The notes beneath the pieces are model-generated. The model did no database searches. It saw nothing but the letters and a program-made list of their open reading frames with translations, and was not told where the DNA came from. Source: Evansella sp. LMS18 (lineage in GTDB: Bacteria > Bacillota > Bacilli > Bacillales > Salisediminibacteriaceae). Taken from it: 64,000 bases of DNA. The DNA lies in assembly GCF_024362785.1 (NCBI RefSeq), contig NZ_CP093301.1, positions 2,232,001 through 2,296,000 of the forward strand, in the 5' to 3' direction. Below are positions 737 to 3,387 of the stretch, in pieces (positions within the stretch are counted from its first letter, which is position 1; each line of letters starts with the position of its first letter). Made by a program: the position numbers and the translations under genes.

Positions 737-2026
737 ATGCTTGGAAACAGGATAAAACAACTGAGAATGAAAAAAGGCTATACTCAGGAACAGCTTGCCA
801 GTGGAATTATCTCCACTTCTTATTTATCTGAGATAGAGAACAATCATAGGAGCATACCTGATTATATAGCACCTTCTCTGGCTGAAAAGCTTGATGTAAC
901 AGAAGATTATATACTGGGCAAAGATGTGGAAGAAAGAATCGAACTCCTGAGAAAAGAAATTCGCGGTATTTTTGAACGGCTTAGTGAAGATCTTGATTAT
1001 GACTTTATGTCCGGCTGTCTTCTTATAAAGAAAAAGTATGGGGACCTGAAGGGGAACGAGATCGCCGAGCAGTACTTTTTCGCCATGGAGATGTTCGGGG
1101 AATTTAAATACAGCAAACATAAGGCTGCAGAAACGGAGAACAAAATAAAATCCTATTTAACGGGAACTTCCAGCATTGACTCTTATCCTCTTCTGGTCCT
1201 TAACAGAATCAGAGGTGTAATTGAGTACAGGAAGCGAAATATACAGAGGAGCATTACATATTTCGAGAGGGCGATTGATAACGCGTTGAACAACCAGTAT
1301 AAAGAGCATTTAAGCATCCTTTTTCAGAATATAGGGACATGCTATTTTACAGCGGACAGGTACCAGCGGGCTGTGCATTATTTCAGCAATGCGCTGGAAA
1401 TGTACCAGAAGAATGCCAACCTGAAAGGGCAGCTGAAAGTGTGTATCCACCTTGCGAACAGTATGTCCGCCCTTGGCGATGAGCAGGAGGCGATTTCCAA
1501 ATACAATCAGGCGATCAACCTGCTGAAGTATATTAATGACCCTTTACTGGAGTCCTCAGCTAAATATAACCTTGCCCACTCTTATTTAAAAACAAAAAAT
1601 TACAGAGACAGCATCAAAATGGCTATCAACGCACTCCGGCTCAAGGAAAAACTGAAGGATAAGGAAGGGGTGCTGAGATGTTATTTACTAATAGCCGAGA
1701 TTTACTTGCTGGAAGAAAAGCATGATAAATTTTCGGAGATAGTCCCGATAGCTTCCCTTAACACAATAGGCACGAAAACCCCTGGTGTCCTGGGGAAATA
1801 TCACTATCTGCTCGGCAAGTACTTTTCATTAAACAACAACCTGGAACAATTCAAAGCAAACCTTGAAAAGGCAATTTCCTATTTTTCCAAAGCTGGAAAT
1901 TTTAAAATGGCTGGGAAAATATCATTTGAGCTTGCCGAGAAAGAGAAGAATGAAACACACTACCGGAGATCAGCGGAGTTTTTCGACAAAGCATTCAAGG
2001 AGAAAGAGGAAGGAGGGATACAATGA
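737..2026 (+). CDS. RRNPP-type regulator: XRE helix-turn-helix plus TPR repeats (NprR/PlcR-like)
   Basis: A 429-residue protein. Residues about 6-60 form an XRE helix-turn-helix (IKQLRMKKGYTQEQLA, then LSEIENNHRSIP). The rest is helical with clear TPR units, for example around residues 195-225 (FQNIGTCYFTADRY), 235-265, 275-300 and 355-385. The length and architecture match NprR, a Bacillus cereus-group regulator that senses a re-imported peptide (family knowledge). It overlaps by ATGA a 39-codon secreted-peptide gene, the normal arrangement for a pheromone and its receptor, and faces a subtilisin gene as NprR faces nprA. Inference: it is a cytoplasmic quorum sensor that activates extracellular protease and/or sporulation genes. 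The target and the mature peptide are unknown. Confidence 0.85.
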   Translation: MLGNRIKQLRMKKGYTQEQLASGIISTSYLSEIENNHRSIPDYIAPSLAEKLDVTEDYILGKDVEERIELLRKEIRGIFERLSEDLDYDFMSGCLLIKKKYGDLKGNEIAEQYFFAMEMFGEFKYSKHKAAETENKIKSYLTGTSSIDSYPLLVLNRIRGVIEYRKRNIQRSITYFERAIDNALNNQYKEHLSILFQNIGTCYFTADRYQRAVHYFSNALEMYQKNANLKGQLKVCIHLANSMSALGDEQEAISKYNQAINLLKYINDPLLESSAKYNLAHSYLKTKNYRDSIKMAINALRLKEKLKDKEGVLRCYLLIAEIYLLEEKHDKFSEIVPIASLNTIGTKTPGVLGKYHYLLGKYFSLNNNLEQFKANLEKAISYFSKAGNFKMAGKISFELAEKEKNETHYRRSAEFFDKAFKEKEEGGIQ

Positions 2027-2142
2027 AAAAGGCAGTCATTATCACACTACTGATGGTCCTTATGCTTGCAGTGCCGCAAGCAGTATTCAGTTCAGACAAG
2101 GAAGTACCTGATATGGATTCCGTGGAAGAGAATGAAAGCTGA
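2023..2142 (+). CDS. Small secreted propeptide, candidate signalling peptide of the HTH-TPR regulator
   Basis: A 39-residue ORF starting in the ATGA overlap with the regulator's stop. It has a strong ribosome binding site (GGAGGG, 2012-2017). The N-terminus MKKAVIITLLMVLMLAVPQA is a compact signal peptide. The remaining tail (VFSSDKEVPDMDSVEENES) is polar and acidic, the layout of Phr, PapR and NprX precursors. In those systems the exported tail is trimmed to 5-10 residues and re-imported by Opp. Here the mature peptide would lie within KEVPDMDSVEE (inference). A hairpin terminator at 2166-2203 closes the two-gene operon. The gene is easily missed because of its size. Confidence 0.75.
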   Translation: MKKAVIITLLMVLMLAVPQAVFSSDKEVPDMDSVEENES

Positions 2143-2165
2143 TTGAATGAAGCCGAACAAGAAGA

Positions 2166-2203
2166 CACCTCTTATGCCACAGGGACATAAGGGGTGGATT
2201 TTT
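2166..2203 (+). terminator. Terminator of the regulator-propeptide operon
   Basis: CACCTCTTATG (2166-2176) pairs with CATAAGGGGTG (2186-2196) with one mismatch, followed by GATTTTTCG. Confidence 0.6.
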
Positions 2204-2216
2204 CGTAGCAAATTAA

Positions 2217-2253
2217 AAAGCACCTGCCCCCTTATTGGGGAAGCAGGTGCTTT
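2217..2253. terminator. Bidirectional terminator between the propeptide and subtilisin genes
   Basis: A perfect 11-bp stem, AAAGCACCTGC (2217-2227) with GCAGGTGCTTT (2243-2253). It terminates the minus-strand subtilisin gene, and T-runs exist on both sides. Confidence 0.8.
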
Positions 2254-2265
2254 ATGTTTATTTAA

Positions 2266-3387
2266 TTATTGAACCGACCGGACGGCTGCCTCTACATCAA
2301 CAAGGCCATTGCCATAGTACCAGGAATCTCCAAGAGGGCTGGCAGTATTATTCAGCACCTGGCGGATCTGCTCGTTTGATAAGGATGGATTTGCAGCTTT
2401 AACAAGGGCTGCTGCTCCGGCAACATGAGGAGAAGCCATAGACGTCCCATTTAAGGAAGCATAGTCATTTCCGATGTAGGTGCTCAGTACGCTGACTCCC
2501 GGAGCGGAAATTTCAAGCTCTCCTCCTACACTTGAGAATGAAGCCCGGTTGTTATTTGAATCAATTGCAGCAACAGCCATCACGGAATCGTAGCGGGCCG
2601 GGTAGCCGATTGTATTGAACCAGGCGAATTCACCGCTGTTTCCGGCAGCTGCAATAAGGAGCACTCCCGCATTATTCGCATTGTTTGCGGCGGTTTCCAG
2701 GGCGCTGGAACCTGAGCTAGAACCAAGGCTCATATTGGCAATATCAATATCGTTGTCGATTGTCCATTCAATTCCCTGGGCGATCCCGCTTATTGTCCCG
2801 CTGCCATCTGCACCGAGCACTTTAACAGCGTAAAGATCCACATCAGGGGAAACGCCAAGAACCCCGTAATTGTTATCAAGAGCAGCAATTGTTCCGGCAA
2901 CATGGGTACCGTGGCCGTTGTAGTCAATATAGTCCGGCTCCCCGCTTACAAAGCTTACACCCCCTGCAACGTTCAGGTCTTCATGATGTTCGATTCCTGT
3001 ATCAAGGACGGCAACAGAAACCCCGCTCCCAAAGTTTCCATAGTTGTTCTGGACATCATCAGCGTTAATATGAGGGATGCCCCATGGCACATCTTGATTG
3101 TACGCTTCCACTTCCGCGTTTTCTTCGATAAATTCTATGTTTGGATTGTTTTGAAGTCCTTGGACTGCCTGCTCAGGAAGAGTGACTTCAAGGACATTCA
3201 TATGTTGGAATTCATGCTTTACTTCCCCGCCTAATGCTTCAACCGCCTTGTGGTCCGGCCCGCCGCTGAACCCGATTAAATAGCTTCCATGGTCAGGTGA
3301 AGCGCTGGCCGACAGACCTCCTGCGAACAGTGCCGCCCCTAAAACGACAGATGAAAATACAGACATAAGTTTCGTTGATTTTTTCAA
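2266..3387 (-). CDS. aprE: Alkaline serine protease, subtilisin family (S8)
   Basis: A 373-residue preproprotease. It has a signal peptide (1-29, cleaved after ASAS), an I9 propeptide (about 30-95, with YLIGFSG), and a mature domain from about residue 97 ([11 protein letters not shown]). The catalytic triad is visible: Asp129 (VAVLDTGI), His159 ([10 protein letters not shown]) and Ser316 ([11 protein letters not shown]), with oxyanion Asn250. The mature part resembles the high-alkaline Savinase/M-protease group ([12 protein letters not shown] before the His motif). It is richer in Asp/Asn and poorer in Lys/Arg, suggesting salt adaptation (inference). The start is TTG with AAAGGAGC upstream. 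It converges on the peptide-pheromone operon, which probably controls it, directly or indirectly (inference). Confidence 0.95.

Follow-up and report, generated by a model that had tools for sequence, protein, structure and literature searches.

A putative RRNPP-type receptor/pheromone pair beside an AprE-type subtilisin gene in Evansella, and the linkage of such protease genes to receptor-like genes in Bacillales

A 64,000-nucleotide stretch of DNA (the window; 2232001–2296000 of the 4.9-Mb single-contig genome of Evansella sp. LMS18) contained a two-gene unit that is very probably a genuine receptor/pheromone system of the RRNPP type, adjoining a gene for an AprE-type subtilisin (designated aprE). 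We think it probable that the pair belongs to a distinct subfamily and that, of the genes it may control, the neighbouring aprE is the most likely main one. Among the loci surveyed in the order, AprE-type genes were statistically associated with receptor-like HTH genes. The features of the locus were:

676–704, + strand: sigma-70-like promoter candidate, ~30 bp upstream of the receptor gene; weak
737–2026, + strand: receptor gene, 429 aa; XRE-type HTH, then TPR hairpins
2023–2142, + strand: propeptide ORF, 39 aa; signal peptide and acidic tail SSDKEVPDMDSVEENES
2101–2124, + strand: EVPDMDSV (codons 27–34), most likely pheromone region, as judged from an ungapped block common to relatives
2217–2253, − strand: inverted repeat (15-pair stem) in the convergent intergenic space; resembles a terminator of aprE, by consensus match only
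2266–3387, − strand: AprE-type subtilisin gene aprE, 373 aa; TTG start; Peptidase_S8

The sequence-only reading had described a 429-aa XRE-HTH and TPR gene, a secreted 39-aa ORF joined to it by an ATGA overlap and a convergent AprE-type subtilisin, and all three were present. The ATG of the propeptide ORF overlapped the TGA of the receptor gene. Since the receptor gene and aprE face each other across a terminator-like repeat, they have no common promoter. Terminator-like sites numbered 5 in this region (mean of shuffled sequences, 3.1); sigma-70-like promoter sites numbered 8 (shuffled mean, 6.8), i.e. not above shuffles, so the promoter call at 676–704 is weak, and this stretch was largely conserved in E. 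clarkii. No operator common to the aprE and receptor promoters was found on comparing the window, E. clarkii and a relative from another genus of the family (G013). A weak CCTGTT...AGG palindrome, considered as a shared operator, was present in two of these three, was not kept in E. clarkii and was dropped. A mobile-element origin of the receptor was also rejected: none of 25 matching plasmid records and none of 16 phage records had one place covering 80% of the receptor.

RRNPP receptors, encoded next to a gene for a small propeptide exported by Sec, bind the mature signal peptide in the groove of a TPR domain, which alters their activity, and mostly carry an N-terminal HTH. The window receptor matched Pfam HTH_3 at residues 6–59, as well as TPR_12 and other TPR families, and its AlphaFold (AF2) model from four sequences (mean pLDDT 88.3) showed the HTH and nine helical hairpins, counted manually from the helix list. 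Fold matches of the model included apo RapI (TMt 0.79) and apo NprR (TMt 0.76), LGN-type eukaryotic TPR proteins ranking ahead of both by E-value. When the profile of the receptor clade was compared with the PDB, the RRNPP chains scored close together (Rap3T 58 bits, RapF 52, NprR 48) and all were outscored by designed and eukaryotic TPR proteins; the RapF and NprR matches spanned the greater part of the TPR domain. Nothing useful came from searching the PDB with two pieces of the receptor, its C-terminal 130 residues and its 70–200 segment. RNPP_C (PF18768) did not match the window receptor and was not among the 25 families listed for the locus; the genome had two matches to this family, neither of them the window receptor.

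Codons of the window receptor were compared with those of E. clarkii. Residues 131–350 differed by 44 silent and 6 replacement changes, residues 351–429 by 18 and 7, and residues 1–130 (737–1126; HTH and linker) by 8 and 15. Between these two strains the HTH and linker evolve faster than the TPR core.

Membership of the NprR family, to which the sequence-only reading had likened the circuit, was not supported. Twelve NprR residues with roles in peptide contact, closure, tetramer formation or Spo0F contact (as assigned in PMC4970707) were compared, and the window receptor kept 0 of 12 in either of two alignments, which agreed on 10 of the 12 positions and are uncertain because identity was only 18–19% in the structural matches. 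The NprR chain was taken from the printed alignment of another query, its numbering being checked on the 12 residues. At R126, Y165, W167, H201, F225, N306, D309 and R343 (NprX-contact, closure and tetramer residues) the window had H, R, I, T, L, K, a gap, and V or G, respectively; clade relatives kept R126 in 2/8, Y165 in 1/8 and D309 in 2/8 (D309 in one alignment). The Spo0F-contact residues D107, Y118, E188 and Y223 were likewise all absent from the window receptor, and relatives kept Y118 in 2/8, E188 in 4/8 and D107 in 3/8 (D107 in one alignment). A receptor of the bifunctional Rap/NprR type, also inhibiting the sporulation phosphorelay through Spo0F, would agree with the extent of the RapF and NprR profile matches and with the single contact residues seen in some relatives, such as E188 in 4/8; with none of the four in the window protein itself, we regard this as very improbable.

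The gene order invites comparison with known systems. NprA-type neutral proteases are M4 enzymes. According to PMC4147580, the NprR propeptide gene lies directly downstream on the same strand with a protease gene nearby, NprR adjoins the neutral protease NprA, and NprR-NprX controls nprA. The window is alike in its HTH and TPR receptor, same-strand downstream propeptide gene and nearby protease gene, and differs in having none of the 12 residues, in an S8 protease in place of the neutral M4 protease NprA, and in its peptide, the tail SSDKEVPDMDSVEENES being no NprX-type peptide SKPDIVG (the NprX sequence of PMC5641580). The one M4 match of the window genome lay at 341884, in a locus (L254) with no receptor-like gene.

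Rap proteins are not known to carry a DNA-binding HTH, and PlcR is an HTH and TPR transcription factor with a secreted peptide. The likeness to Rap/Phr thus concerns the TPR superhelix, the clade profile scoring higher with Rap3T and RapF than with any other RRNPP chain, and the HTH_3 domain of the window receptor sets it apart. It shares with PlcR/PapR the HTH and TPR domains and a secreted peptide, and a PlcR-like pair adjoined the second AprE gene of the genome (see below); in contrast to the window receptor, the PlcR-like proteins surveyed were ~300 aa long and in most cases accompanied by a divergently oriented peptide gene, and the window receptor lacked RNPP_C. By the features tested the receptor would work like an RRNPP transcription factor and falls outside NprR, PlcR and Rap. 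The candidate subfamilies of RRNPP_detector, of which 21 were reported as novel (PMC10075063, main text), follow the same gene-pair logic as the window pair, and that main text had no match for Evansella, subtilisin, protease or aprE. The window receptor is a candidate for a new RRNPP subfamily.

The propeptide gave no matches in Pfam or family searches. Compared with E. clarkii, 14 of its 39 codons differed (12 silent, 2 replacement), and its tail (residues 23–39) had 2 silent and no replacement changes; judging from these codons, the propeptide is under purifying selection. A comparable downstream ORF was found behind 2 of 343 genes (those of the window and of 400 kb sampled arbitrarily in related genomes), namely the window propeptide and one weak case with a TTG start. 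The rule required a Shine-Dalgarno-preceded, signal-like ORF of 28–60 aa starting at −12 to +30 of the gene's stop; the Sec signal was judged by composition, and the signal rule is conservative, since it recognised only 4 of the 6 propeptides of the family on which it was checked. Tails of seven species, cut by hand, formed an ungapped block scoring 455 against a shuffle maximum of 171 (0 of 300 shuffles reached it; shuffling ignores kinship), with the near-identical E. clarkii left out and the broken tail of E. halocellulosilytica included. Examples in relatives were SSDREWVEPD, SSDHDYVEPD and ASDPDWVRPT, and some of the relatives' tails carried a PDWV core. The SSD part may be the signal-peptidase site. 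The fit of the window tail to the block formed by the other six was weak (equalled by 419 of 5000 shuffles), and therefore the pheromone code of the window has diverged; by position in the block, the mature pheromone probably lies within EVPDMDSV.

The 39-aa ORF might instead have arisen by chance or encode a small secreted protein other than a signal, the receptor sensing something else. The lack of family matches and the loss of the intact ORF in E. halocellulosilytica agree with this. The silent-biased substitutions, the ATGA coupling, the conserved position and the tail block, together with the single other such ORF among 343 genes, speak against it, and we find it scarcely credible.

The clade receptor occurred in 8 of 35 genomes of the family (E 1e-20 or better). 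In a profile search of the same genomes these 8 scored at least 577 bits, every one of them being itself a row of the search profile, and the next match scored 118 bits. In an order-wide sample of 397 genomes, at least three genomes had a match at 1e-40, all of the same family; this search was shallow, the best 4 candidates per genome being scored, so members may have been missed. Scanning contigs with a single HTH pattern gave 50 loci, of which only those of E. clarkii, E. vedderi and E. halocellulosilytica matched over the whole receptor; one (L018) matched over 116 residues and the remainder essentially in the HTH only.

An intact downstream secreted ORF was present in seven of the eight clade members, the window included. 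E. halocellulosilytica kept the receptor and had a propeptide remnant (L017, after 6260) with an internal stop and without a usual start, in which the tail and some of the signal sequence could still be recognised. Relatives holding the receptor with no secreted ORF downstream were thus confined to this broken remnant, and free drift of the tail was not seen, the tails forming an ungapped block and the window tail having no replacements against E. clarkii. The sequence-only proposal of an RRNPP-type quorum-sensing pair with a new pheromone code, adjoining a protease gene, is supported. The genome of E. halocellulosilytica has another receptor, peptide and AprE locus (L127).

AprE genes adjoined the receptor in three of the eight clade members, in two arrangements. 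E. clarkii DSM 8720 had a 93%-identical receptor with the same propeptide and, as in the window, a convergent aprE, one extra ORF lying between the pair and aprE; in G013 a 53%-identical AprE gene lay next to the receptor gene in divergent orientation. The other five had no adjoining AprE gene, and their genomes had AprE genes elsewhere. Behind the pair of E. vedderi lay a gene for a 437-aa secreted-looking protein without a Pfam match (L016:6621-7931), and beside the receptor in a genus g3 relative a ZIP transporter gene (Pfam being run on one of three, L066). The window genome has two further HTH-TPR receptors with downstream secreted ORFs, one of 424 aa with a 44-aa ORF (L072:7097-8371) and one of 427 aa with a 39-aa ORF (L073:5319-6602); several relatives of the former have a GD.PRPHST-like tail in common. 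By the S8 coordinates in the genome, no S8 gene lay beside either.

The window protease matched Peptidase_S8 at E 8e-63 and fitted the AprE type, whose members are short secreted proteins (~370–440 aa) with a Peptidase_S8 domain. Its genome contained 16 S8 genes, of which by coordinates only two adjoined any of the seven receptors that were identified. The second of these, an AprE-like gene of 364 aa, lay 226 bp downstream of a PlcR-like receptor with RNPP_C, accompanied by a divergent 38-aa secreted ORF ending APPPYTHG (L070:5611-8079; G000:C1:4367610-4370078), and E. clarkii had the same PlcR-like receptor-AprE locus (L124).

AprE-type loci were then surveyed for a receptor-like gene, i.e. 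an ORF of at least 230 aa with an N-terminal match to the HTH profile of the family receptors, or a similar C-terminal part (L167 had no C-terminal match and L177 a weak one). Such a gene was found within 1 kb of 37 of 74 loci in 35 genera, the loci from outside the family being among the matches listed. Within the family the count was 24/34 loci and 6/6 genera; outside it, among the matches listed, 13/40 loci and 12/29 genera, the other 27 of the 40 having no receptor-like gene within 1 kb. The family set comprised all 37 AprE-type genes, in 34 loci, that reached an E-value of 1e-90; of three weaker matches left uncounted, two were used among the controls and the third (G022, 492 aa) was omitted, and some loci ended at contig ends (e.g. 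L137, just past the protease). The outside set comprised 40 loci among the matches listed, one genome in each of 29 genera (those of G148, G150 and G206 being left out), with the best 5 candidates per genome scored, so that members may have been missed. The receptor of L164, 2154 bp away, was excluded from the count, and two loci (L121 and L015) had an ORF between receptor and protease.

By the same rule, no receptor-like gene was found near longer subtilases (0/42 loci, as 0/7 and 0/35) or in 400 kb of arbitrary DNA from related genomes. All 17 genomes supplying the 35 control loci also held a receptor-positive AprE locus, and two of the five supplying the other 7 did not. Fisher tests, whose P values are optimistic because the loci are related, gave P 6e-10 by locus (37/74 vs 0/42) and 2.5e-4 by genus (18/35 vs 0/15), the AprE loci and genera being partly among the matches listed; outside the family, among the matches listed, P was 2.7e-5 by locus (13/40 vs 0/42) and 2.5e-3 by genus (12/29 vs 0/15). 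M4 protease controls had a receptor-like gene in one of five loci. There (L251, genome G114), a 417-aa HTH receptor-like gene adjoined the M4 protease gene in an NprR-NprA-like arrangement, and no signal-like ORF was seen directly behind it. No earlier report of AprE-type genes linked to such receptors was found in the open-access literature searched.

The AprE-linked receptors fell into two, three and five clusters at 1e-12, 1e-20 and 1e-30, and the window receptor stood apart from the others at 1e-20 and 1e-30, not at 1e-12. Relative to the protease gene they were placed in upstream tandem, divergently, convergently and, once, downstream. The receptor of L150 (299 aa, of the PP.YTHG kind) matched PlcR and that of L169 had NprR as its best match; the AprE link is therefore common to known and unknown receptor kinds. 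Candidate secreted propeptides were found in 31 of the 37 receptor-positive loci by a lax rule (either strand, within 500 bp, no background rate), some of the picks looking like chance. By eye, nine ended at or near a PapR-like DLP[YFHL] (PapR contains ADLPFEF), ten in PP.Y[TV]HG and two in LPNQH, four had HPDP or DHPKIV (repeated in tandem two or three times in two of the four), three were of the window kind and three were singletons. The candidate propeptides beside the AprE genes of L169, L180, L149 and L154 had pheromone-like units (EPDHPKIV, AGDAEHPDPTSI, DLPYED) in tandem, two or three to a propeptide.

From these data we infer the following scheme for the window. The 39-aa propeptide would be exported by Sec and cut back extracellularly to a short peptide in the region of EVPDMDSV, which would be re-imported via an oligopeptide permease and sit in the TPR groove of the receptor, altering DNA binding by the HTH. 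The adjacent aprE would be the most likely main target and, in that case, the alkaline protease would be made in a dense population. The association found in the survey lends comparative support to the proposed control of aprE.

Alternatively, the pair could be a genuine RRNPP system of which aprE is not the target, the neighbourhood being a relic or chance and the receptor controlling other genes. This is where the findings against aprE control belong: AprE adjoined only three of the eight clade members and was missing beside five, with an unrelated secreted-looking protein in E. vedderi and a ZIP transporter in the genus g3 relative in its place, the window genes are convergent with a terminator-like repeat, and no operator shared by aprE and the receptor was found. 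Two different gene orders, however, place one protease type next to one receptor clade, and a receptor-like HTH gene lies near every second AprE-type locus of the survey, among the matches listed, so we consider this reading improbable and prefer aprE as the target.

AprE might also act on the propeptide as its maturation enzyme, perhaps being a target too, in a self-contained loop compatible with the preferred reading. Subtilisin-family proteases mature PhrA (PMC4147580), and extracellular proteases mature Phr3T, AprE being postulated for other Phr peptides (PMC11343458); the linkage also recurs with several receptor clusters. Against this, different propeptides use different proteases according to PMC11343458, each genome has other subtilases (16 S8 genes in that of the window), and five of the eight clade members lack the linkage, which makes such a role unlikely. 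As subtilisin-family proteases can mature some Phr propeptides according to these two papers, a wider loop model is opened, in which AprE and the RRNPP pair would form a recurrent three-part Bacillales module, repeatedly assembled with several receptor lineages, whose protease is both the density-controlled product and the propeptide-ripening enzyme of a self-amplifying loop. We hold this model to be quite unlikely.

In the relatives examined, AprE-type genes adjoined receptor genes of this kind far more often than expected by chance, which suggests that population density commonly controls these proteases. Among the secreted proteases of such bacteria, alkaline subtilisins are important ones, and they form a major class of industrial enzymes. 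The survey yields candidate pheromone codes (PP.YTHG and DLPYE endings; repeated EHPDP and EPDHPKIV) with their receptors, and a likely reporter gene adjoins each surveyed receptor that has such a code. If many AprE-type genes are paired with a dedicated receptor, their control would commonly be by private peptide signals, which is directly testable in several species with short synthetic peptides.
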